A DNA stretch of 26,203 nt from a virus. This document shows positions 3,065-15,088 of this stretch, piece by piece. Within the stretch, counting starts at the first letter, position 1. Every line of letters begins with the position of its first letter. The position numbers were made by a program, and so were the translations under genes. Location of the stretch: positions 1 to 26,203 of the IMG/VR virus record IMGVR_UViG_3300017730_000067. One strand, written 5' to 3'. Under the pieces are notes generated by a model that saw only the letters and a list, made by a program, of their open reading frames with translations, was not told the origin of the DNA and ran no database searches.

Positions 3065-5191
3065 TTATTGCCTATCGTTTTGTCTGTACTCTAACACTGC
3101 TGTGTCAAGAGTAAATGTGGGATTGGTTGAATTGTCAGCTATACGTAGAGCTACCGTTTTACCCGATCCGATTAGATTAGTATTATATATTTTATCTAGT
3201 TCACCACCATAGGTTATTTCTGTTGCTTCTACCATATTAGCAGTGCCTCCCATACCACTATGATTAGTACAATAGTAATATAGTGTAGGTGTACTGTCTG
3301 TAATTGTTATCTCAGTATATGCCCCAGAGCTTCCTGCTGTTCCACTTGTAGTAACACCTGTTGTGTATGCAGAACCCCCACCATGAGTACCGTCTGCTGT
3401 TGTAGAAAATCTTAGAGGGTGAGTAGAATTACTATTATCTTCTTGTGTAAATCTATATGTACGACCTATTGTTAGGCTTAAAGTTGGAGCAGCACCAGTA
3501 TGGTCTGATATATAATATTTATTTCCTGATCCCGGATTAGATACTGTTACTGCATAAGTAATATTTTTAGCATAGTAAATAGCATCAGATGCCCCATAAG
3601 AAAATACAGAAGTACCTGTACTGGATATAGCTTGTGTAGGTGGTTGTATAATTTTGTCATCGTTAAAATCGTATGTAAGATTTACGTCTACTGATGTAGA
3701 GCCAGTAGGTGTAACATACAAGGCCATTTTATAAAAAGTCTTACGTATCTGAGGGTCTTGAATAGGCATAAAAGGAGATTCATAAATAGCCTCAATGTTA
3801 GAACTATCAAAATTACTACCTGTTTCCATCTTATAAACATAGCCGTCATCGTTTACAAACACGGAAGTTTCTTGATCTCCTGCATATCTACTATCTGCTA
3901 TATAGGCTTTTATACCTTTTGTCGAAGCCCAGTTAATACCTGCAGAACCTTGAGCAATAAATTTAGTAGCTATTAAACCTTTAGCAACAGAGTTTCTCTC
4001 TGAAGAAACATAAGCAAAGATACGATACTGAGATTTATTTCTTATAAGCATAGAAGAAAATTCGTTTGATGTATTTAAAAAAGAATCAGCATCTTTATGT
4101 ATTGAATCAGATGCAACATCTAATGCAAAGTCACCGATACGATCTGTAGCACTTAACAATCTAATCCCATCAGGAGCTAAATAAATAATATCACCACCAA
4201 CTTCTTGTATGGTGTCTCCGTTAATACAACCTGTTTTATTTGTAATAGGTGCTAAAGCCCAATCACTAACAGAGTTACCTGTAATTTTTTGTATTGTGTC
4301 TGTTGTAAAAATAATAAGTTGATCACGAAAAACTGTAAGACCTGTTATGTCATGTCCTATATTAATAGTTCCAGAGCCTGTACCAAAGTTACTTACATCA
4401 GAAGGAATACTAAAAAAGAGATTATTACCTTTAGCATAAAAAGCATGTTTTTTAAACATTGCTACATGTTCTGCACCACTAATATCTGAACTGTTAGATG
4501 AAGTAAGAAATGTTGTACTGTTTCCAGAAGTATTATAAATAGCAGGGTAGCTAGTTCCATCTACAAAAATAACTTTATCATCACCGTCTAAATTAAATTC
4601 TGTATGTTTAGCTTTACCACCGTTAGTAGAGGCACTCTTTGCCATAAAGGTCCATGTTGTACCTGTACTATAATAGTAAGCTGTTTTATTTAAATCTGGT
4701 GTATCTAAATGTTTAAAGGTTAAAGCTACATCATTTGATAAAGATTGGGTAGAAGACAAAACTAAAGTGTTTTGATCTGTTACTGTGGCAACGGTTGGTG
4801 TTCCAGATATACCTGTTCCAGTAACAGACATGCCAACTTCAATAGTACCAGAATTACCGTCTACCACTAGTGCTGTTGTTGAACTTGTAGTTCCATTTAC
4901 AGAAGCTGTTGCTGTATATGTTGTTATCGCACTGCTATCTACTTTACGTGCTGCTACTACAAGACCAGAACTAATAACCTTTAATGCTAGGATAGGACCA
5001 GTTCCCGGTACAGTTGTAGTACTGTACTTTTCAAAACCTAAAAGTTTACTATACCCACCATTTTTATTAGGCTCAAAATTTTGTAGTACAGTAGCAGAAC
5101 CTACAGCATTAATACCCTGTTGCAATGGGCTAAGATTGGAAATAAGTCCACCCCTAAATTCTATAGGATATGTTTGCCATTGTGTTGCCAT
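3065..5191 (-). CDS. Tail tubular protein B-like (gp12-like nozzle) with cupredoxin-like insert
   Basis: A 708-residue protein. The N-terminus (QTYPIEFRGGLISNLSP, ending in a VLQNFEPN motif) and the beta-propeller-like body (residues about 160-500, repeated strands such as DQLIIFTTDTIQKITG and VFVNDDGYVYKMETGSN) fit the podoviral tail nozzle family of T7 gp12. Position immediately after a gp11-like gene supports this. Two extra domains interrupt it. Residues about 90-160 form a small Gly/Thr/Val-rich beta module. Residues about 545-656 form a cupredoxin-like module with H591 and YYYCTNHSGMGG (C641, H644, M647). The ATG overlaps the upstream stop by one base (TAATG at 5189-5193). The nozzle assignment is by resemblance and synteny; the copper idea is inference. 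Confidence 0.8.
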   Translation of the reverse strand: MATQWQTYPIEFRGGLISNLSPLQQGINAVGSATVLQNFEPNKNGGYSKLLGFEKYSTTTVPGTGPILALKVISSGLVVAARKVDSSAITTYTATASVNGTTSSTTALVVDGNSGTIEVGMSVTGTGISGTPTVATVTDQNTLVLSSTQSLSNDVALTFKHLDTPDLNKTAYYYSTGTTWTFMAKSASTNGGKAKHTEFNLDGDDKVIFVDGTSYPAIYNTSGNSTTFLTSSNSSDISGAEHVAMFKKHAFYAKGNNLFFSIPSDVSNFGTGSGTINIGHDITGLTVFRDQLIIFTTDTIQKITGNSVSDWALAPITNKTGCINGDTIQEVGGDIIYLAPDGIRLLSATDRIGDFALDVASDSIHKDADSFLNTSNEFSSMLIRNKSQYRIFAYVSSERNSVAKGLIATKFIAQGSAGINWASTKGIKAYIADSRYAGDQETSVFVNDDGYVYKMETGSNFDSSNIEAIYESPFMPIQDPQIRKTFYKMALYVTPTGSTSVDVNLTYDFNDDKIIQPPTQAISSTGTSVFSYGASDAIYYAKNITYAVTVSNPGSGNKYYISDHTGAAPTLSLTIGRTYRFTQEDNSNSTHPLRFSTTADGTHGGGSAYTTGVTTSGTAGSSGAYTEITITDSTPTLYYYCTNHSGMGGTANMVEATEITYGGELDKIYNTNLIGSGKTVALRIADNSTNPTFTLDTAVLEYRQNDRQ
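3224..3559 (-). other. Cupredoxin-like domain (residues ~545-656 of the tail nozzle protein)
   Basis: The module runs from YAVTVSNPGSGNKYY through a TYRFTQEDNSNSTHPLRFST region to YYYCTNHSGMGG. It shows His591, then Cys641-x2-His644-x2-Met647, the order of ligands of a type 1 blue copper site. Plastocyanin-type loops normally have C-x2-H-x4-M, so this loop is two residues shorter. The upstream strand with HPLRFS is where the first His ligand is expected. The ligand order is seen in the sequence; the fold and metal binding are inferred. Confidence 0.5.
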
Positions 5192-6211: not shown

Positions 6212-7675
6212 TTAGGCTGCAATCTTAATGATTTGTGTATTCTTGTTTTGTTTAGGTATATACAAGGTTCTATTTTGTGGTGGTATAATAACTGTATTAT
6301 TATTATCTTGTGCTACTGCGTATATAGTTCTTTGTCTGTTGTAAGCATCTGGGTCAAAATCAAATACAACACCTGTTGCAGTAAGTTGACCTAATGCTAC
6401 TTGTAATCCAACAGAGGTTAAACTTTGTGTTGCAGGGAAAGAAAGAAGTCCAATAGCACCTGTTGCAAAGACACTGTTTAAAACTTCACTAACTTTGGCT
6501 TCTAAGCCCTCAACTTCACCTGCAACAACTACACCTGTTGGAATTACAGAGTTATTAACTTTTAAAGAACCTACACTACCAGAAGCACTAACACCAACTA
6601 ACGTATGTGTTTTACCCACACTAATACTTAAAGTGTTTACCGCACCAGAGCCTTGCACTCCTGTCAATGACAGACTTACATCAACTCCTAAAGAACCTAC
6701 ATTACCTGTAGCACTTACAGAATTTAATGCTTCTGATGTAGTGGTAACTATAGAACCTAAAGCTGTTGTACCAGAAACACCAGTAATACTTTCTGAAATG
6801 TTTACAGATACAGTAGCTACAGCACCAGTAGAACTTACAGAAGATAATTGTTCTGTTACATCAATTTCAAAAACATTTATAGCTACAGATGTAACTATAC
6901 CTGTAGAAGAAACACCTGTAAGACCACTAGCTGTTTTAGTTTGAAGTGTTCCAACAGAACCAGAACCCTGAACACCAACAATGCTTTCACTTACTTTAGG
7001 TTCTATTGTTCCTAAAGAAGAAGTTAGTCCACTGCTTGAAATTACTATGGTAGAAGTTGCAGTAAGTGTAAGTGTACCTAAAGAACCAGTAGCAGCTACA
7101 CCAGAAATTGGAAAAGAAAATCTTGCATCAACAGTATTTACTGATCCAGTGCTGCTTACACTATTAATTTTTTCTGTTACATTTACAGTTACAGAGTTTA
7201 TTTGTCCTGTACCAAAAACACTTGCTAAACTTTCAGAAAACGTAATGGTTACTGTATTTACAGAACCTGTCCCAGACACACCAGTAAGTGTAGATGTATT
7301 ACTATTCTCTACTGTATTTACAGCACCTGTTCCAGACACACCAGTTAATGTAACAGTGTTGCTATTTTCTAGTGTACCTATTGCACCAGTACTTTGTACT
7401 CCTGTAGGTGTTACAGTTAAATTTACAGAGACTGAACTAATACCTGTTGTACCAGAAACACTGCCTAGCTTTTCTTCTGTATTAAAACTTATAGTTCCTA
7501 CAGCACCAGTAGCACTTACAGACCCAAGTCTTTCTGAGATGTCAACTTCAAAACCACCAACAGACAGACCTGCTACTGCAGTACTAGCAGAGACACTACC
7601 TAAAGAAACATCTGGAGATACAGATGAGGATGATACACCAAAGGGAGCTTCAGATAGTGCCGTAAAACCGAACAT
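6212..7675 (-). CDS. 20-residue-repeat tail structural protein
   Basis: A 487-residue protein almost wholly made of about 20 tandem repeats with a period of 20 residues (occasionally 22-25), residues about 26-437. The unit is roughly L-x-S-V-S-x-T-G-x-V-x-T-V-x-V-N-x-x-E-x. Only Ser, Thr, Gly, Val and Asn vary conservatively, and no Cys or Trp is present. A short N-terminal cap (MFGFTALSEAPFG) and a distinct C-terminal segment (TIYAVAQDNN, then PPQNRTLYIPKQNK) flank the repeats. The regular period predicts a solenoid or an elongated beta stack, suitable for a shaft or whisker. It lies between the accessory enzyme cassette and tail adaptor genes. An AAGGAT ribosome binding site precedes the ATG at 7675. 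The fold is inferred from periodicity. Confidence 0.75.
   Translation of the reverse strand: MFGFTALSEAPFGVSSSSVSPDVSLGSVSASTAVAGLSVGGFEVDISERLGSVSATGAVGTISFNTEEKLGSVSGTTGISSVSVNLTVTPTGVQSTGAIGTLENSNTVTLTGVSGTGAVNTVENSNTSTLTGVSGTGSVNTVTITFSESLASVFGTGQINSVTVNVTEKINSVSSTGSVNTVDARFSFPISGVAATGSLGTLTLTATSTIVISSSGLTSSLGTIEPKVSESIVGVQGSGSVGTLQTKTASGLTGVSSTGIVTSVAINVFEIDVTEQLSSVSSTGAVATVSVNISESITGVSGTTALGSIVTTTSEALNSVSATGNVGSLGVDVSLSLTGVQGSGAVNTLSISVGKTHTLVGVSASGSVGSLKVNNSVIPTGVVVAGEVEGLEAKVSEVLNSVFATGAIGLLSFPATQSLTSVGLQVALGQLTATGVVFDFDPDAYNRQRTIYAVAQDNNNTVIIPPQNRTLYIPKQNKNTQIIKIAA
6365..7600 (-). repeat. In-gene array of ~20 tandem 60-base units
   Basis: The repeats code for units like TGVSGTGAVNTVENSNTSTL and SSVSSTGAVATVSVNISESI, spaced 20 residues apart (for example unit starts at residues 51, 71, 91, 111, 131, 151, 171 and 191). 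At the DNA level the copies are degenerate, with many synonymous differences, so the repetition is conserved at protein rather than nucleotide level. The neighbouring pair at residues 111-150 is the most similar and may be the most recent duplication. Confidence 0.8.
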
Positions 7676-7686
7676 TTAGTTTATCC

Positions 7687-8376
7687 TTAGTCTATTTGTT
7701 CATTTATTAGTTTCATTATTTGTTTATTATATCTATTTATTTTAAATCTTTCATAGCAATAAGATAAAGAAGATTTTGGGGAATAAACTTTTAGACTTAA
7801 ACAGCTATGAGCAATATTAACCATAGGCTCTGTAACGGTAAACCTTTTAAATTTAATTTCTTTATTAAAAGTTACATATGCCATAGGTTCTCCTTTTTTT
7901 ATTTCAATAGGATTACCTGTATATATTGATGAAAAACTAATTGGCCTAAACCATTTACTTATGTCAAAAGAACCTGCAATACCAAAAATATCAGACTTAT
8001 GCATAAATGGTGGGTATATGTTTAATATAGTTTTAGTTGGTGCAAACATACATAAATAAAAATCACTTAACCACTGTATTGCATTCGGAGCTCTTTTAAT
8101 ATCCTCTCCTAATTGATCAACCATTAGTATATGGGGATTAGCAGAAGTATTAAAAACTTTATGAGATTTACCTCTAGTAATCTTTATAAGTAAATCGCAA
8201 GGGGTGTTTATTACGTAGTAATCTTTTATAGTATCAGCTATAGAAGGACACTGTAAAAGACCCGTTACGTTATATTTAGCATACTCTTTTTTTATAGACT
8301 TAGTGAGTCTTTCAGGTTCATCTAATAATATCCTGTAAGGGTGTTTGTCGTGTGATCCATATGCTACTATATCCAT
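7687..8376 (-). CDS. DUF6065-like protein of unknown function
   Basis: A 229-residue protein. Recognisable features are a CPSIADTIKDYYVINTP segment (about 43-59), a central hydrophobic part (LSDFYLCMFAP), and HKSDIFGIAGSFDISKWFRP (about 126-145). A GNPIEIKKGEPMAYVTF stretch (about 154-170) follows. The last two motifs, a beta-barrel edge ending in KGEP-x-A-hydrophobic, resemble what I remember of DUF6065 proteins that sit near oxygenase genes in phages; this family match is from memory and not certain. No catalytic residues can be assigned. The start (ATG 8376) lies inside the end of the preceding oxygenase gene (10-base overlap) and has a GAGGG site before it, so it is the last member of the coupled accessory cassette. 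Confidence 0.6.
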   Translation of the reverse strand: MDIVAYGSHDKHPYRILLDEPERLTKSIKKEYAKYNVTGLLQCPSIADTIKDYYVINTPCDLLIKITRGKSHKVFNTSANPHILMVDQLGEDIKRAPNAIQWLSDFYLCMFAPTKTILNIYPPFMHKSDIFGIAGSFDISKWFRPISFSSIYTGNPIEIKKGEPMAYVTFNKEIKFKRFTVTEPMVNIAHSCLSLKVYSPKSSLSYCYERFKINRYNKQIMKLINEQID

Positions 8377-8912
8377 CTTTGACCCTCAAACCAAGCAACT
8401 AAAGAACATCTTGTACCTTTTGTTACAGGAGATACTCTATGGCTTAGATAACTAGGAAAAACAAGGACAGTACCTTTTTGTCTAAGTTTTTCTTTATTGG
8501 GGTTTTCTACTTCTGCAAAACTAAAGTCTCCACCTTCATAGTTTTCCGAATCACTTAGCTGAACTGTTATACTTAACTTCCTATCAAAAGCAGTTTGAGA
8601 AGACCAATTTGTATCAATATGCCAATCATAATGACCATTTTGTTCAGCATGATACAGAGTATATTGTATGTCTGCATAGTTTTCTACTTTAAAACCAAAC
8701 ACATTTCTGTTAGCATTCTGAACTATGTCCCACAAAAAGTTTTTAAGTTCTTTATTTTGAGATAGCCAAGCAACTTCACTAGACCTAGCTTTATTATTAT
8801 CATTAAAAGTTGTAGCTTTATTTACTATCTGTTCTTCAGCTAAATCATGTATTTTATTTACAAGAAATTCATTTACTGCGTTTTCGTATAGTTGCCATAG
8901 TGGTCTATGCAT
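8367..8912 (-). CDS. 2-oxoglutarate/Fe(II)-dependent oxygenase, prolyl 4-hydroxylase type
   Basis: This 181-residue enzyme shows the full facial triad and co-substrate Arg: HYDWHID with H98 and D100, then FPSYLSHRV with H158, and TRCSLVAWFEG with R168. The intervening LSITVQLSD and YEGGDFSF segments are the usual strands of the double-stranded beta helix of the prolyl 4-hydroxylase (P4Hc/PKHD) group. Such enzymes couple oxidation of 2-oxoglutarate to hydroxylation of proteins or small molecules in the cytoplasm. The ATG at 8912 (GAGGGA upstream) overlaps the preceding radical SAM gene by 8 bases. The substrate is unknown; the Gly-Pro-Thr fibre upstream in the operon is one candidate. Family assignment is firm, substrate is inference. 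Confidence 0.9.
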   Translation of the reverse strand: MHRPLWQLYENAVNEFLVNKIHDLAEEQIVNKATTFNDNNKARSSEVAWLSQNKELKNFLWDIVQNANRNVFGFKVENYADIQYTLYHAEQNGHYDWHIDTNWSSQTAFDRKLSITVQLSDSENYEGGDFSFAEVENPNKEKLRQKGTVLVFPSYLSHRVSPVTKGTRCSLVAWFEGQRWI

Positions 8913-9867
8913 AGTATTCCCTCAAATTAAAGTTAGTGCCGATCATATTTCCTATATATCTGTCATCATTACTGTACACTAAAACTTCAGGGTCTTCAAC
9001 TAAAAAATCACATGACTTGCAATAATCAGGGAAATCTTTATTTCTGTGTTGCTCTCTTAATTTATTATAAGCCTTACCATTCCAAACTTCTTTTAAAGTA
9101 TTTGTACTTAAATGCCCTAATACTGCAGCCTCATCATTACCTAAAACCTGACAGCAAGGATGCACTGCTGCTGTATTACCATCATTACCTCCTGCCCTAA
9201 CAACTACATCAGGAGAGAAAGGTCTTCCACATCCTGCTATCTTACCTTTTCTTTTATAATCAGACTCATATACACCAGACCAATTATGCATACGCCAAAT
9301 ATCAACATTCATATTATCAAAAAGAGATTTATATGCTTCTACTTCTACTGGCTCATTATCGTTGTCTAGTATTAAATGATATGCTGCTACTATACAATCT
9401 TTATCTTTAGCATACTCCCGCATATCTTTAGCATTTTGTATAACTAAGTTAAAGAAAGGACTATTCATCCATTGTTTATATGTCTCTTCATTGTAGCCTA
9501 TAATAGAAAACCTAAAAAAGTTAAGACCTGCATCAACCGTTTCTTTCATAAAAGACCCACGCATATTCTTACCATTAGAATATATGTAAGATTTTGCTCC
9601 ATACTTTTTTACGATCTCAATATATCTTGGAAGATTTCTATTTAAAGTAGGTTCTCCTGATCCTTCTAGATTTATAGCCTTTACGTTTTGTTCTGCACAC
9701 TGAGCAACAATATCTTCAAACTGATCTAGTGGCATTTTCCTTAAAAAACCTTTTGGTCTTTTAGGGTCTGTTTGAGGACACATCTTGCAAGTATAATTAC
9801 ATCCACCGTTTATTTCAATAACGGCCCTTTCTAGTTGAGGCATTGTAAGTAAATTATTAACTTTCAT
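8905..9867 (-). CDS. Radical SAM protein with SPASM-type C-terminus (second copy)
   Basis: A 320-residue radical SAM enzyme. The CNYTCKMC motif (C23, C27, C30; CxxxCxxC) binds the SAM-cleaving 4Fe-4S cluster, and LEGSGEPTL (about 68-75) is the SAM-contacting GGE-like strand. Residues about 213-286 hold a SPASM-like set of cysteines (C213, C238, C239, C283, C286) for extra clusters. I place the start at the ATG at 9865-9867, which overlaps the preceding stop as ATGA (9864-9867). The longer frame to 9921 would need a TTG start inside the previous gene and has no clear ribosome binding site. Such proteins often modify peptides, sugars or cofactors by radical chemistry. The substrate is unknown. 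Confidence 0.9.
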   Translation of the reverse strand: MKVNNLLTMPQLERAVIEINGGCNYTCKMCPQTDPKRPKGFLRKMPLDQFEDIVAQCAEQNVKAINLEGSGEPTLNRNLPRYIEIVKKYGAKSYIYSNGKNMRGSFMKETVDAGLNFFRFSIIGYNEETYKQWMNSPFFNLVIQNAKDMREYAKDKDCIVAAYHLILDNDNEPVEVEAYKSLFDNMNVDIWRMHNWSGVYESDYKRKGKIAGCGRPFSPDVVVRAGGNDGNTAAVHPCCQVLGNDEAAVLGHLSTNTLKEVWNGKAYNKLREQHRNKDFPDYCKSCDFLVEDPEVLVYSNDDRYIGNMIGTNFNLREYYA

Positions 9868-10337
9868 TTTGCTATAATAAATCCGTTTAAAGTTTTTCTT
9901 GTCTCTCCCCTTTCTGCACAATAGCTGTGGTAAGTATAATTTTCTTTACCTGCAAAAATAAATGCTCTGTTTGGTTTCCAATCTACTCTACCGTAATAAC
10001 TTTTATCTGGTTTATATAAATCTGTTCCTGTTCCTTTATCTCCAAGATAAACAACAACCGATATTATTTTCTTAACCCACTCATGGTGTATTGGATACTC
10101 ATAAGGTCCGTGTTGAACTGAATAATACCAATCAATTTTCTCAACTTCGTTATAGGGTTTGTGATCTAATTTTTTGCAATACTTAAATATATCAGGAAGA
10201 AAAGATGTATCAGATATAGATAACCTATACTTTGCCCCCTCACCAATAGACTTTCTTTTATTTACTTCTGCTAAGTGGAAGTCATAATTGGTTAAAAAAT
10301 TATCAACAACTATGTGGGGCCAAGGATTATGCTGCAT
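9864..10337 (-). CDS. 2-oxoglutarate/Fe(II) oxygenase-like protein with HxE metal motif
   Basis: A 157-residue protein with the compact architecture of phage 2OG oxygenases: N-terminal PWPHIVVDNFLTNYDF, strands around IISVVVYLGD and RAFIFAG, and a C-terminal TRKTLNGFIIAK. The likely metal ligands are H84 and E86 (in PIHHEW) with distal H137 (YTYHSY). R147 is the probable 2-oxoglutarate salt-bridge residue. Glu in place of the usual Asp is less common but known in cupin-type enzymes. It overlaps the preceding radical SAM gene by 11 bases and the following one by 4 (ATGA). Substrate unknown. Confidence 0.75.
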   Translation of the reverse strand: MQHNPWPHIVVDNFLTNYDFHLAEVNKRKSIGEGAKYRLSISDTSFLPDIFKYCKKLDHKPYNEVEKIDWYYSVQHGPYEYPIHHEWVKKIISVVVYLGDKGTGTDLYKPDKSYYGRVDWKPNRAFIFAGKENYTYHSYCAERGETRKTLNGFIIAK

Positions 10338-11241
10338 AAACCGCCTCGTTTAATTGCATAATAAATGCAACATCAGGTCGTTTGTAGCAAGTTGAACATG
10401 GGCTTTTTGTTCTGCGACCATTTATTAGTTCTGTTCTGTATTCTTTTAGTCCTTCGTCAGTGTTCCAAAACTCTTTCATTGGAACATTATGTATATTACT
10501 AAAATTGTTTTCTTTGCTCCAATCATTACAACAAAGAACGTAATCACCATCCCAATTTACATAGACCATATTAAACGGCTTATGACATATTTTACCCCAT
10601 TGTTTATGTCCTTTATAATCTGGTCTGTTTATATTTTCATCAGGCACAGAACCACCACGATTATTTAAAGCTCTACCTGCTTTAGAGTCTGTCATAATTG
10701 TTTTAGTTTTACGGTCTGAAATTCTTATATCTGGATAACGTAACTTAGCTTCATGGAAACTAATTTTACTTTCATCATATATACTAAAATTTACATCATC
10801 TAGCTGCTTATATAAATCATAATACTTATCTATCCTTGATCCATTGGTGCTAACCTTAATCCATAGATGAGGCATATCAGTATTACGCCTGTGTATTGCT
10901 TTTTCTAGCATCTTGCCAAAATCAGGATGCAAAGAAGGTTCACCACGCCCTGCAAAATGCAGTCTAAATTTATCTGGCTCTTCGGAATAAAGGTTTTTGT
11001 CATTGCTATCTGACCACCCATTTCTTTTTGAGAAATCAAATGTAGCCATTTCATCAAGTATAAGGTCAAAGGTTTCTAAACTCATGTTCTGATTAAGGTT
11101 TGGGTAGCCATGCGCCCGTGGGCAAAAACTACATTTCATATTGCATAGTTCTGTTAAGTGAACCTCTACACACCAGATGAAATCGTCCATCTTAATCATA
11201 TCAGGGTGTAATTCAGTATTAGATTTATACATGAAGTCCAT
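10327..11241 (-). CDS. Radical SAM protein with SPASM-type C-terminus (first copy)
   Basis: A 304-residue radical SAM enzyme with CNMKCSFCPRAHG (C33, C37, C40), an FAGRGEPSLHPD SAM-binding strand (about 97-107), and a SPASM-like C-terminus. That C-terminus contains C219, the adjacent pair C237-C238 in YVNWDGDYVLCCNDW, and C282/C285 in SPCSTC. The W-DG-x-V-x-CC pattern is typical of radical SAM enzymes with auxiliary clusters. It differs substantially from the second copy at 8905-9867, so the two are not a recent duplication and probably have different substrates. ATG at 11241; an in-frame ATG at 11232 is possible. It overlaps the preceding gene by 17 bases. Function beyond radical chemistry is unknown. 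Confidence 0.9.
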   Translation of the reverse strand: MDFMYKSNTELHPDMIKMDDFIWCVEVHLTELCNMKCSFCPRAHGYPNLNQNMSLETFDLILDEMATFDFSKRNGWSDSNDKNLYSEEPDKFRLHFAGRGEPSLHPDFGKMLEKAIHRRNTDMPHLWIKVSTNGSRIDKYYDLYKQLDDVNFSIYDESKISFHEAKLRYPDIRISDRKTKTIMTDSKAGRALNNRGGSVPDENINRPDYKGHKQWGKICHKPFNMVYVNWDGDYVLCCNDWSKENNFSNIHNVPMKEFWNTDEGLKEYRTELINGRRTKSPCSTCYKRPDVAFIMQLNEAVYAA

Positions 11242-12154
11242 TTTCTTTAGTAAATTTCCATGAGTGAAGGTCTACATCTGTAGCCCCTAGCTTGTATAAA
11301 TCACGCCTCTTATTTATTTTCCACTTAAAATTTTCAGAGTTGTAATCATTGACACAAGACTTCCAATACCATGTAAGCCATCTTATCTGTTCCTCTTTTG
11401 GTATTGGTTTTAATTCTAATACACTACTGTCTAGTTCTTTATAGTTAGCCAAAGGCACAATATCACTTATCATACAACGCCTTAAATTTACAGTTGGTTT
11501 TTGTTGCAGCATGGCTTGCAAAGTCATAGCACTATCAACACTTATAAGCATTTCACATTGTGAAACCATTGACATAGAATTGTAGTTTTCTCTTGGAAAA
11601 CAAGTATACTCACTTGTTATCCCCATTTTTTCTACAACTCCCCAAAACGCATCATAGTTTCTAGGTATATTGCTTTGGCTTGATGATGCAGGGTGGCGTT
11701 TAAATACTGTATAAACTTTATTTTTTGTAGCCCACTCAACAAGGGCTACTGTTTCATAGTAGTCTTTAGGGTAAATAAACTGCAAAGGCACAAGAACATA
11801 TGGTCTATCTTTAACCCAAGGCTTATCTGTTTGTAAATATCGGTCATTAGCCCTATTTAAATACTCTTGATATATTTGTTCGTCTGGTTCTGCTTTAAGC
11901 CAATCATCTCTTTGTTTATATTCAGTAATATATAAACCTTTTGAAAACCTTATGTGTTCAAATGCACCAAAGCCACCCATAAATCTGTAGTCAACTTTTT
12001 GATTATTATAGACTTCAAAACATGCTTCTTCGTTATCCCATTGTTCTGCTATACTTAAACAATTTCGTAGCAAAGGAACAAGATGCATTTTTTCTGGGTT
12101 ATGTTTTCTATGCTCAATCCAAAGTGCAACCCAAGCCTCTGCACTTATCGCCAT
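11225..12154 (-). CDS. Capsule-biosynthesis/glycosyltransferase-like protein (KpsC/KpsS-like C-terminal half)
   Basis: A 309-residue protein. The second half resembles GT-B-fold capsule polysaccharide transferases: YVLVPLQFIYPKDYYET (about 119-134), YTVFKRHPASSS (K152, H154, P155), CEMLISVDSAMTLQAML (about 200-216) and KPTVNL (219-224). This order of a VPLQ strand, a K-x-HP loop, then S-x-DS and EAL-like nucleotide-sugar binding elements is what I know from KpsS/KpsC-type proteins. The first half (IEHRKHNPEKMHL and MGGFGAFEH) is not recognised. It overlaps the neighbouring genes at both ends (10 and 17 bases). If active it would transfer a sugar to a host or virion acceptor. The assignment is a resemblance and not certain. 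Confidence 0.5.
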   Translation of the reverse strand: MAISAEAWVALWIEHRKHNPEKMHLVPLLRNCLSIAEQWDNEEACFEVYNNQKVDYRFMGGFGAFEHIRFSKGLYITEYKQRDDWLKAEPDEQIYQEYLNRANDRYLQTDKPWVKDRPYVLVPLQFIYPKDYYETVALVEWATKNKVYTVFKRHPASSSQSNIPRNYDAFWGVVEKMGITSEYTCFPRENYNSMSMVSQCEMLISVDSAMTLQAMLQQKPTVNLRRCMISDIVPLANYKELDSSVLELKPIPKEEQIRWLTWYWKSCVNDYNSENFKWKINKRRDLYKLGATDVDLHSWKFTKENGLHV

Positions 12155-12642
12155 ATAGGGCGACCAAAACCAAATGCAAATCTAGTTTCTTCTGCATAAG
12201 CAGAATGCCAAAAAGGTTTTTCTTTTACAACTTTAAATTTTCTGCAAGTCCAATCATTAGGATCATCATAAGATAGTTGTTGATTTCCATTTTCATCTAA
12301 GTACTTAAAAACACCCTTACCTTTAATATAATATATTCTGTAACCTTCGTTGTCACTATTAGTATGCCAAGGAAGTTGAGTATTTGCTTCCATTCTTGTA
12401 CAATTAGTAACATCATCACACTCTAAAATTTCAGCACACTCTTTAAGTAAACCAGAAATTTCTTTTTCATCATTTTCAAAAAGTGCACCAGAAGCACTTT
12501 TAGGTATGTCCATATGGGGCAAAGGTCTTTTTAAAAACTCATCCAGTGTTAATGTTTTTGTAGGTTTTCTGCTTTTATTTAAACTTATTACTTCTTCTAA
12601 ACGTTTAATAACTTCACCTACTGGTTTGATTATTTCAATCAT
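12145..12642 (-). CDS. 2OG-oxygenase/cupin-like protein with atypical metal motif
   Basis: A 165-residue protein whose C-terminal half has the layout of aspartyl/asparaginyl beta-hydroxylase or related 2OG oxygenases. It contains LPWHTNSDNEGYRIYYIKG (H93), GVFKYLDENG, FKVVKEKPFWHSAYAEETR (H146, R154) and FAFGFG. The usual acid two residues after the first His is replaced by Asn95, with Asp97 two further on. This resembles beta-hydroxylases that use two His ligands, but could also mean altered chemistry. The N-terminal 80 residues are helical and unassigned. Its ATG overlaps the upstream stop as ATGA (12639-12642). Substrate unknown. Confidence 0.6.
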   Translation of the reverse strand: MIEIIKPVGEVIKRLEEVISLNKSRKPTKTLTLDEFLKRPLPHMDIPKSASGALFENDEKEISGLLKECAEILECDDVTNCTRMEANTQLPWHTNSDNEGYRIYYIKGKGVFKYLDENGNQQLSYDDPNDWTCRKFKVVKEKPFWHSAYAEETRFAFGFGRPIWR

Positions 12643-13070
12643 ATAGCATTTGCCTTTTCATAAAGCTGTCTTTTTTCATCATTAGTTATTACTCTGTCAG
12701 CTAAAAAATTAATTACAATATCTTCACCAAGATATACATAGCCATCCTCAAGACGATCTGCCCAATCAGCAGGTCTATCAATATCATCTAAAGGCGCATA
12801 CATTTGCAAATAATCAATAATTTGCCGTAAGTGTCTTTTTGTTCCACAACGTGTGACTTCCTGTTTTACACCAACAGTACCATCTTCACGTATCCATAAA
12901 TCCTCATATTCATCTTCACATCCCTCTGGTATAGTAGGATGAGTCTCAAGATAAATTTCAGTCATAGTTTTTTGACCAACTTTTAATTTATCAAACTCAC
13001 TGTCTGCTAATTTGCCATCTGTTGACATATAGCACAAAGAGTTATCTTCATTGAAATAATACCAAGGCAT
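12639..13070 (-). CDS. Unknown 143-residue acidic protein behind the collagen-like fibre
   Basis: I do not recognise a family. The protein is acidic and starts MPWYYFNEDNSLCYMSTDGK, with a mixed strand/helix middle (LWIREDGTVGVKQEVTRCG). A helical C-terminus follows (HLRQIIDYLQMYAPLDD, then DEKRQLYEKANAI). It begins 8 bases after the fibre stop and is preceded by an AGGA ribosome binding site. It is stop-start coupled to the oxygenase-like gene downstream, so it opens the accessory cassette. From position alone it could be a fibre assembly factor or a protein serving the modification enzymes. Both ideas are unsupported by motifs. Confidence 0.75.
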   Translation of the reverse strand: MPWYYFNEDNSLCYMSTDGKLADSEFDKLKVGQKTMTEIYLETHPTIPEGCEDEYEDLWIREDGTVGVKQEVTRCGTKRHLRQIIDYLQMYAPLDDIDRPADWADRLEDGYVYLGEDIVINFLADRVITNDEKRQLYEKANAI

Positions 13071-13078
13071 TTTTTTTC

Positions 13079-14626
13079 CTAATATGTTCTGTAACGTTTG
13101 CGAAACCCAGAAAAATAAGTTGTATTATCATACTGAGTGGCAGTAAGATCAGTTCTATCTACGCCGCACCAAAGCCAATCATTTTGTTGTGACGCACTAG
13201 TTAAATTTTTAAGACCTTTATCTGTCGTCGAGTAACTACCACTTTGGTAATAGCTGCCATATGCCAGACCACTTATGGAAGCCCCAGACGGTCCTGTTGG
13301 CCCTGTTGGTCCTGTTGGGCCAGTTGGCCCTGTCGGTCCTGCCACAGTACTATCTGCGCCTGACGGACCAGTTGGGCCTGTCGGTCCTGTCGGTCCAGTT
13401 GGGCCTGTACCACCTGCATCACCATCACCACCTGCAGGTCCAGTAGGTCCAGTAGGGCCAGTTGGTCCTGTCGGTCCAGTTGGTCCTGCTGCAATAGCAT
13501 TAGCAATAGTTTGCTTTTCCCATGCACTAGCACTAACATCATATACAGGGATAAGGTCAGAAGACCCTGCATCTGTACCAGTAGAAAATGCAGTAAGGGC
13601 AGTACCTACATTAGCTGCATCTGTGACATCTGAAGATGCTTCGATACCGTCTAGCTTAGTACCGTCTGCTGACAAATCTCGACCATCTACAGTTTGAGAG
13701 CCAGACATGACAATATTGCCTGTTATTGTGCCTCCTGCTTTAGGTAAAGCTGCATCAGCAGTAGTACCTTGTGCAGCAGTTGCATAGTCTGAACTATCAA
13801 ATGCTTTAACTTCAGCAAGATTAGTAACCTCACTGTCCATCAAAGCTCCTGCAGAAGTTACATTAGCTGTATCAGTTACATCAGCAGATGCTTCAATACC
13901 ATTGAGCTTAGTGTGGTCTGCATCAGTAAATACATTAGAGTCTGAGGCTGCTTCTACTGCCGCCCTTATTTCGGCATCAGTTTGATCTGCCGTAGCACTT
14001 GCTTCAATACCATTTAGTTTAGTATGGTCATCATCTGTAAATACATTTGAATCACTAGCAGCTTCAACTGCTGCTCTTATCTCAGCATTAGTTTGGTCTG
14101 CAGTTGCACTAGCCTCAATACCATTTAACTTAGTATGATCAGCATCAGTAAAGACGTTACTGTCGGATGCAGCTTCAACGGCGGCTCTTATCTCTGCGTT
14201 TGTCTGATCTGCCGTAGCACTAGCTTCAATACCGTCTAACTTACTACCGTCTGTAGCAAGGTCACGACCATCTATAGTACCGGGAATAGCAATATTACCT
14301 GATGCATCTTCAAACACTGCTTTATCTGCAGGGTATGTCATAAATATATTTTTAGTACCTGCAGAAAAATCTACAGCATTATTAGAATTAGAACTGGATA
14401 GGATAGTAGTTCTAGCTAAAGTATTACCACTACTAGTATAAGTACCAATACCTACTTCAAACTCATTATCATCACCTTGTTGCTCAATAGCATAGTATGT
14501 GGTGTCGGCATTAGAAAGGGCAGAACTAAAGGTTTTAAACTTAGTTACTGCCCCCCCTAAAGAGATACTACCTGTACCTGTAGTTGTGGTTGTTTCTTTA
14601 ACCCTATCTTTTACGACAAGTGCCAT
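13079..14626 (-). CDS. Collagen-like tail fibre protein
   Basis: A 515-residue fibre. The N-terminus ([20 protein letters not shown] and a WTRTTIL-like [11 protein letters not shown] region) resembles attachment domains of marine phage fibres. Residues 132-242 are three near-identical 37-residue repeats starting [32 protein letters not shown] segment echoes them later. Residues 381-450 are collagen-like Gly-X-Y: six triplets GPT/GPA, a GGDGDAGGT linker, more GPT, a short break (STVA), then GPT again. A compact C-terminal domain (about 451-515, with YYQSGSYST and [10 protein letters not shown]) may be the receptor-binding tip. An AGGGGG site precedes the ATG. A collagen-like triple helix implies a trimer. 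It heads the accessory cassette. Confidence 0.85.
13277..13486 (-). repeat. Collagen-like Gly-Pro-Thr triplet region
   Basis: The region codes for residues 381-450: mostly GPT with single [15 protein letters not shown] and GAD triplets and one four-residue interruption. Pro is always in the X position and Thr mostly in the Y position. Codons vary synonymously (GGN CCN ACN), so the array is protein-conserved rather than a recent slippage product. The complementary strand also reads as Gly-Pro-Val because of the codon symmetry. Confidence 0.9.
13901..14233 (-). repeat. Three tandem 37-residue fibre repeats
   Basis: Three copies start at residues 132, 169 and 206 of the fibre ([20 protein letters not shown] and onward), with a partial fourth at 243. 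Protein identity is nearly complete (changes only such as N/D and A/D), yet the DNA copies differ at many third positions. For example, the same [11 protein letters not shown] is spelled with different Ala, Glu and Ser codons in each copy. Confidence 0.85.
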
Positions 14627-14650: not shown

Positions 14651-15088
14651 TTAGGCGATACGAATGACTGCTGTAGATGCTCCTGCAGCAGGAAATTCAA
14701 TAGTAAGATCACCTGCAGTAGCACTAACTGTACCACCAAAGTCGATTACTGCAATAGCTTTATTAGATGCAGATGAATTATAAATAATACAACCTGCTGC
14801 AGAAGTAGTTACGTTAGAAAATACCTCGTCTGCAAAATCTACTAAGGCAGTAGTTCCTGATGTGGTAATAGCAGCACTGTCAAGATTTTGACCTCCTGCA
14901 CTGTAGTTAGTGCCTGTAGCCTCATCAGAGTTACCTGTAACATCTGAGTAGTTTGTTGTAGCTGCCCCATATGTTCCAGACATACCACTTTTAATTAAAG
15001 CCAATTTAATTGTGTTACTGTCTAAGTCGTGTGTACCACCAAGTAGCTCAGACTTAAAACTTGTACACATTGCTGTTGTGATTGCCAT
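14651..15088 (-). CDS. Small virion structural protein (decoration/tail type)
   Basis: A 145-residue protein starting MAITTAMCTSFKSELLGGTH with a TIKLALIKSGM strand, a YSDVTGNSDEATGTNYSAGG loop, and a hydrophobic VDFADEVFSN to CIIYNSS, then AIAVIDFGG and LTIEFPAAG. The pattern is familiar from small beta-rich structural proteins of marine phages lying between capsid and fibre genes. I cannot say whether it belongs to the head or the tail. A GAGGA site precedes the ATG at 15088. It is separated from the decoration-like gene by a 64-base gap holding the hairpin at 15113-15140. Confidence 0.7.
   Translation of the reverse strand: MAITTAMCTSFKSELLGGTHDLDSNTIKLALIKSGMSGTYGAATTNYSDVTGNSDEATGTNYSAGGQNLDSAAITTSGTTALVDFADEVFSNVTTSAAGCIIYNSSASNKAIAVIDFGGTVSATAGDLTIEFPAAGASTAVIRIA

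Follow-up and report, generated by a model that had tools for sequence, protein, structure and literature searches.

Why would a phage keep radical S-adenosylmethionine (SAM) enzymes, oxygenases and a glycosyltransferase directly behind a tail fibre gene? The question is raised by the virus record IMGVR_UViG_3300017730_000067 of IMG/VR (positions 1 to 26,203; this whole stretch of 26,203 nucleotides is called the window below), where eight overlapping genes (7687-13070) follow the gene of a collagen-like fibre. In gene order they are called u1, ox1, gt, rs1, ox2, rs2, ox3 and d8 (Table 1). The original prediction, made from the letters of the window, proposed a late modification pathway acting on a virion protein or on the host surface. 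A dedicated collagen-modifying enzyme was found in related cassettes, and the enzyme set varies with the sequence of the fibre next to it, which favours the virion protein as target; the host surface may still apply to rs2, whose relatives abound in sugar islands of T4-like phages. We consider it fairly probable that fibre and enzymes form a module in which the enzymes modify the virion fibre encoded beside them, with stalk and tip treated separately.

Enzymes and the collagen stalk

A cassette syntenic with that of the window but carried on a different phage backbone (locus L003) ends in a 598-aa protein (6993-8789) combining GT25, PLOD glucosyltransferase and 2-oxoglutarate (2OG) lysyl-hydroxylase domains. 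This fusion matched Pfam GT_PLOD (8e-37) and human LH3 in the PDB (9e-30) and, more weakly than LH3, procollagen galactosyltransferase 1 and mimivirus lysyl hydroxylase. It is included in the cassettes of L003, L008 and L009 alike, and a scan for it returned 75 viral contigs. A collagen-like gene was called just upstream of the fusion in 69 of 84 loci. Among the remaining 15, three (L199, L267, L268) have a collagen that scored below the thresholds; other exceptions have the fusion near a contig end or a fibre open reading frame (ORF) running off the contig (L182). Lysine occupied the Y position in 1291 of 4847 Gly-X-Y triplets (27%) in fusion loci versus 7 of 670 (1%) in loci without the fusion. 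When sequences were grouped at 98%, Y-lysine collagens were present in 44/44 clusters with the fusion and 0/6 without; grouping by 80% identity of the marker protein gave 11/11 and 0/5. Exclusive placement of lysine at Y was also considered as a sign of the fusion enzyme and was rejected; control collagens likewise have no lysine at X, and only the frequency at Y counts. In the window cassette, GT25, PLOD glucosyltransferase and lysyl-hydroxylase domains were not found, and the collagen contains no lysine (0 in 19 triplets; read in the near-identical L002).

The only collagen-linked enzyme common to the window and the fusion-bearing cassettes is ox3. In the window fibre, proline occupies X in 17/19 triplets and threonine occupies Y in 14/19. 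The mean proline content at X was 48% in collagens with ox3 nearby versus 5% in those without. A cut of more than 12% X-proline, set after inspection of the data, was exceeded by 17/17 collagens with ox3 and by 2/33 without. In a tree built from 40 fusion proteins, the presence of ox3 agreed with proline richness in 40/40 rows; ox3 changed state five times, proline richness five times, and all four well-supported independent contrasts pointed the same way. The X-proline fractions in this set were bimodal without overlap (at least 0.13 versus at most 0.09). Because ox3 co-varies with Gly-Pro-Y collagens, its probable function is prolyl hydroxylation of this collagen sequence. Gly-Hyp-Thr triple helices can gain stability from 4-hydroxyproline at X, and hydroxylating the X position of Gly-Pro-Thr would accordingly make sense.

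Both rules are obeyed by sequenced isolates. CRP-6 carries the fusion but no ox3, and its collagen has 26 Y-lysines and X-proline in 6/99 triplets. In S-PRM1, S-CAM9 and S-8S55, ox3 lies directly ahead of the fusion, and the collagens have 22-24 Y-lysines and 21-31 X-prolines per 55-59 triplets. The fusion in these cultured Roseobacter and Synechococcus phages is annotated as hypothetical: gp58 of CRP-6 (MK613348), 34413-36254 of S-CAM9 (KU686206) and 129960-131804 of S-PRM1 (MH629685).

The fibre tip and module A

The other part of the cassette behaves differently. Genes 9864-13070 (u1, ox1, gt, rs1, ox2) are called module A here; in relatives the block reads u1-ox1-gt-(rs1)-ox2-(rs2). The original prediction coupled the cassette to the collagen-like fibre and took cassettes in phages without that fibre as counter-evidence. 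The coupling was supported for ox3, which tracks the collagen, but not for ox1-gt-rs1-ox2: module A blocks also stand behind fibres without collagen repeats (L054, L178, L179, L183, L185, L187, L190), so such counter-evidence exists in part. What the alignment showed these collagen-free fibres to share with the window fibre is a C-terminal tip, RKxYRT[FY], whose last eight residues are far better conserved than the remaining tip domain.

Among 5123 ORFs from 269 loci, 45 end in the tip, and all 45 lie upstream of module A genes. They comprise 20 distinct tips, each directly upstream of these genes. In L105, tip copies are present with weaker scores. Fibres of collagen-plus-fusion loci without the module A block end in other sequences. 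A tip-only scan, run with a narrow tip alignment because a broader one was too variable, added a single contig that extends downstream of the tip, L275, and it carries module A. The tip was absent from the 50,697 phage records searched, and no tip without module A genes was found in the 269 loci and L275.

Comparison of the window with L010 separates two parts of the cassette. The block from tip to ox2 (tip, u1, ox1, gt, ox2; rs1 is missing in L010) shows 37-46% identity, and rs2, ox3 and d8 are 86-91% identical. This pattern suggests exchange of the tip and its enzymes as one block, although it is suggestive only, since the block is contiguous. Module A blocks elsewhere contain extra genes for FkbM methyltransferases, sulfotransferases, GT8 and an aminotransferase, and therefore sugar tailoring fits. 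Aminotransferase and sulfotransferase genes also stand beside ox1 and gt in distant cassettes (L100:12409-13281, L043:9388-10020, L103:13045-13752), hinting at amino- or sulfo-sugars.

Genomic setting and cassette proteins

The portal protein of the window shares 82% identity with its counterpart in Roseobacter phage CRP-345 and 78% with the one in HMO-2011; the window is therefore a fragment of an HMO-2011-type podovirus, and its host is probably a Roseobacter-clade or similar alphaproteobacterium. A near-identical contig, IMGVR_UViG_3300017732_000049, matches at 99.8% across 20.8 kb. All eight ORFs on the minus strand were intact and stand as first called, with successive overlaps of 4, 10, 17, 11, 4, 8 and 10 bases; for rs2 the ATG start was taken in place of the upstream TTG of the ORF list (8905-9921). 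The fibre gene stops 8 bases ahead of u1, and a structural repeat gene begins 11 bases past d8. These short gaps on both flanks place the cassette inside one continuous late operon, in the tail region as predicted. Promoter and terminator scans gave fewer matches than shuffled sequences and hence no usable internal signal.

The gene order of the cassette recurs in independent contigs and on the different backbone of L003, L008 and L009. Ratios of nonsynonymous to synonymous substitution (dN/dS) against one relative were 0.06-0.38 for the genes compared, indicating purifying selection; ox1 gave 0.76, at 37% identity. Because the order recurs and the genes are under purifying selection, the cassette is not a chance assembly. 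Both fibre and cassette are missing from CRP-345, where gp55, a repeat protein like 6212-7675, comes immediately after gp56, the homologue of 14651-15088; fibre and cassette were thus gained or lost jointly. In CRP-603 the fibre at this locus is homologous at its start (55% identity), yet collagen, tip and cassette are all missing.

Table 1. Features of the fibre and cassette in the window (positions in the window).
Feature	Position	Strand	Remarks
Collagen-like tail fibre	13079..14626	-	19 Gly-X-Y triplets; tip ends ...GFRKRYRTY; PHROG tail fibre
Fibre tip, last 70 aa	13082..13291	-	RKxYRT[FY] at extreme C terminus; alignment of fibres preceding related cassettes
u1, small protein	12639..13070	-	Invariably sits between fibre and enzymes
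ox1, 2OG-oxygenase fold	12145..12642	-	Metal motif H93-T-N95 ... H146
gt, probable capsule-synthesis (KpsS/WbbB-like) glycosyltransferase	11225..12154	-	Mainly via L003 orthologue
rs1, radical SAM SPASM/Twitch enzyme	10327..11241	-	Radical SAM and SPASM Pfam matches
ox2, 2OG-Fe(II) oxygenase	9864..10337	-	H84-x-E86 ... H137 ... R147
rs2, radical SAM SPASM/Twitch enzyme	8905..9867	-	Radical SAM and SPASM Pfam matches
ox3, PKHD-type 2OG oxygenase	8367..8912	-	H98-I-D100 ... H158 ... R168
d8, no assigned family	7687..8376	-	Accompanies ox3 in four related cassettes

Both rs1 and rs2 certainly contain radical SAM plus SPASM domains, in agreement with the original prediction (Pfam E 1e-9 to 2e-14). 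Each has the CX3CX2C motif (CNMKCSFC, CNYTCKMC) and Twitch-like C-terminal cysteines, CX..GX4C and CX2C. The nearest solved structure for both is the SPASM/Twitch aminocyclitol dehydrogenase BtrN (7e-14 for rs1, 2.5e-10 for rs2). BtrN makes an aminoglycoside precursor. Among cultured phages, rs1 has relatives only in Campylobacter phages, whose genes are BtrN-like (OP654737, MK408758, FN667789; ~26% identity).

Three 2OG-oxygenase-like proteins had been predicted, and two of them proved to be good candidates. ox3 matched 2OG-FeII_Oxy_3 above the cut-off (6e-16) with a complete HxD...H iron site and 2OG-binding arginine; ox2 fell below the Pfam cut-off (1e-4), yet its ligands are present. The third, ox1, had no Pfam match and has the fold only: its AlphaFold model (predicted local distance difference test, pLDDT, 86) matched 2OG prolyl hydroxylases (HIF prolyl hydroxylase 2, PHD2) and AlkB. 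HxN replaces the usual HxD/E in all seven aligned members, and H-T-N is invariant across the family alignment. The glycosyltransferase-like protein of the prediction is probably of the capsule type. gt itself scored below the cut-off of Capsule_synth PF05159 (E 0.03), and it was placed there because its L003 orthologue passes (33.6 bits versus a cut-off of 20). Relatives of gt were absent from the genome contigs searched, which thus held no bacterial or prophage copy. The assignment of d8 as DUF6065-like failed: PF19541 detected its controls but nothing in the window, although matches up to E 10 were allowed. The unassigned proteins are thus two, u1 and d8, rather than one. The AlphaFold model of d8 was unusable (pLDDT 34). 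Family searches with u1 gave no match; it is a probable fibre-tip partner or chaperone.

Right after the cassette, 6212-7675 encodes a low-complexity S-V-S-A/S-T-G repeat protein, with counterparts of ~220 to 670 residues in relatives. The tail protein 3065-5191 has a C-terminal insert resembling a YHYH domain ('TLYYYCTNHSGMGG'), which is missing in the L054 version (read by eye).

Proposed fibre modification and its alternatives

Gene linkage, domain identities and the match of enzyme content to fibre sequence were observed, and from them we infer a chemistry. The fibre gene and the eight genes that follow would constitute one exchangeable module, a tail fibre plus its finishing enzymes. In the stalk, ox3 would hydroxylate the X-position prolines of the Gly-Pro-Thr repeats; in relatives the fusion enzyme would also hydroxylate Y-position lysines and add galactose and glucose, an enzyme and lysines that the window does not have. 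u1, ox1, gt, rs1 and ox2 are predicted to work on or near the C-terminal tip. There, u1 would probably bind the tip during assembly, gt would put a sugar on it, and the oxygenases and BtrN-like radical SAM enzymes would oxidise or tailor that sugar or tip residues, so that the tip chemistry is probably a tailored sugar. The modified tip would form the receptor-contacting end of the fibre.

Several observations weigh against this reading. On the collagen side, the 0.12 cut for X-proline was chosen with the data in hand, a sign test with four independent pairs gives p 0.125 and cannot pass 0.05, and ox3 is missing beside two collagens rich in Gly-Pro that belong to other lineages (L025, L099). 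On the tip side, L043, L092 and L103 have module A without a recognisable tip; tip and tip enzymes are adjacent and may owe some of their linkage to shared inheritance. The activity of ox1 is uncertain, with Asn in place of the Asp/Glu that usually serves as carboxylate ligand. Lastly, T4-like sugar islands containing rs2 relatives have neither collagen nor tip.

These islands bear on the first alternative, in which the cassette would act during infection on the O-chain or capsule of the host surface, so as to exclude competing phages, its position behind the fibre being the usual hypervariable region of host recognition. We found 469 rs2-like proteins in viral contigs, many of them T4-like. 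In T4-like contigs (L018, L024, L027, L072 and others, near locus position 10000) the rs2-like genes lie in large islands with genes for carbamoyltransferase, UDP-glucose dehydrogenase, UDP-galactopyranose mutase, B12-binding radical SAM proteins and methyltransferases. Pelagimyophage host-recognition clusters, which also hold radical SAM cassettes, are read as O-chain modification in the part of PMC7029224 that treats them, as are islands of this kind, and gt resembles capsule enzymes. The substrate of rs2, perhaps of all module A, could thus be a free or host sugar before its transfer to fibre or host. However, remodelling of the host surface does not predict that enzymes match fibres (proline with ox3, lysine with the PLOD fusion, tip with module A). 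The cassette of the window contains no recognisable membrane or lipid-linked sugar gene. For O-antigen conversion of the gtr type, the eight proteins gave no match to a GtrA/GtrB-like flippase or lipid-linked glucosyltransferase in Pfam and NCBIfam. Moreover, CRP-345 is without fibre and cassette together. We regard host-surface remodelling as unlikely, while the link of the enzymes to the fibre is itself drawn from sequence covariation and gene linkage.

A second alternative keeps the tip as target but changes the chemistry: as in ribosomally synthesized and post-translationally modified peptides (RiPPs), residues in the C-terminal RKxYRTF would be cross-linked or epimerised by the radical SAM enzymes and hydroxylated by the oxygenases. 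SPASM radical SAM enzymes often act on peptides, weak similarity to peptide maturases was seen, and the strong conservation of the last eight residues would fit. On the other hand, the best structural relatives (BtrN and, for rs2, also DesII and cytosylglucuronate decarboxylase) act on small sugar-like molecules; the Twitch-type cysteine motif, gt and the sulfotransferase partners favour sugars; and no short leader-bearing precursor gene was present among ORFs of at least 60 aa. Maturation of this type thus seems improbable. A passenger cluster without shared role, retained through linkage to a useful fibre, is very improbable: the mosaic identities between the window and L010 would suit it, but the same order across backbones, the intact overlapping genes, the purifying selection and the way in which ox3 and proline content repeatedly changed together argue against it.

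Modification of the virion fibre, the reading we prefer, has known counterparts on the collagen side. Mimivirus L230, a lysyl hydroxylase plus glucosyltransferase, modifies viral collagen (PMC9614988). As with L230, animal LH3/PLOD and GLT25D1, the cassettes of relatives encode homologous GT25, PLOD glucosyltransferase and lysyl-hydroxylase domains beside Gly-X-Lys collagen. They differ from L230 and LH3 in that three domains are joined in ~600 aa and the fusion goes together with tail-fibre genes and further enzymes, and the window has neither this enzyme nor the lysines. The prolyl 4-hydroxylases of PBCV-1 and Bacillus anthracis, both 2OG oxygenases, have been proposed to act on viral or bacterial collagen-like proteins (PMC9301287, PMC8968730), and the B. 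anthracis prolyl 4-hydroxylase acts on X and Y prolines of (PPG)n (PMC8968730). ox3 is likewise a 2OG oxygenase with a presumed collagen-like substrate, but it is PKHD/PiuC-like in sequence, and its presumed substrate has proline at X, threonine at Y and almost no Y-proline. BclA of Bacillus spores is glycosylated (PMC8968730); collagens of its type share the collagen-like domain on an exposed fibre but have other enzymes, whereas here a phage tail fibre is accompanied by radical SAM proteins. Pelagimyophage and cyanophage host-recognition clusters also show a hypervariable block with radical SAM cassettes beside tail fibres, but their glycosyltransferases are read as host O-chain modification, untied to fibre sequence, and collagen-enzyme coupling is not described in that part of PMC7029224. 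We found no report of collagen modification by phage tail-fibre cassettes in the open-access literature.

Judged by sequence, then, the cassette belongs to a wider set of late cassettes, each matched to its accompanying fibre. Its collagen side extends a known kind of modification, that of giant-virus and animal collagens, to bacterial viruses, among them cultured phages of Roseobacter and Synechococcus; its tip side may be new in kind. The scheme predicts modified residues directly from fibre sequence, and it offers an answer to why marine phages carry prolyl hydroxylase-like genes, which have been called cryptic (PMC9301287). The small phage lysyl and prolyl hydroxylases could also serve the production of modified collagens in bacteria. 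More broadly, and tentatively, phages may possess fibre finishing kits, in which a receptor-binding fibre travels with two matched sets of enzymes: one would carry out prolyl and lysyl hydroxylation and lysine glycosylation on its collagen stalk, the other radical SAM, oxygenase and sugar chemistry on its C-terminal tip. In that case host recognition would depend on a phage-made covalent modification. Chemical modification of the fibre tip would then suggest a new layer of host recognition.

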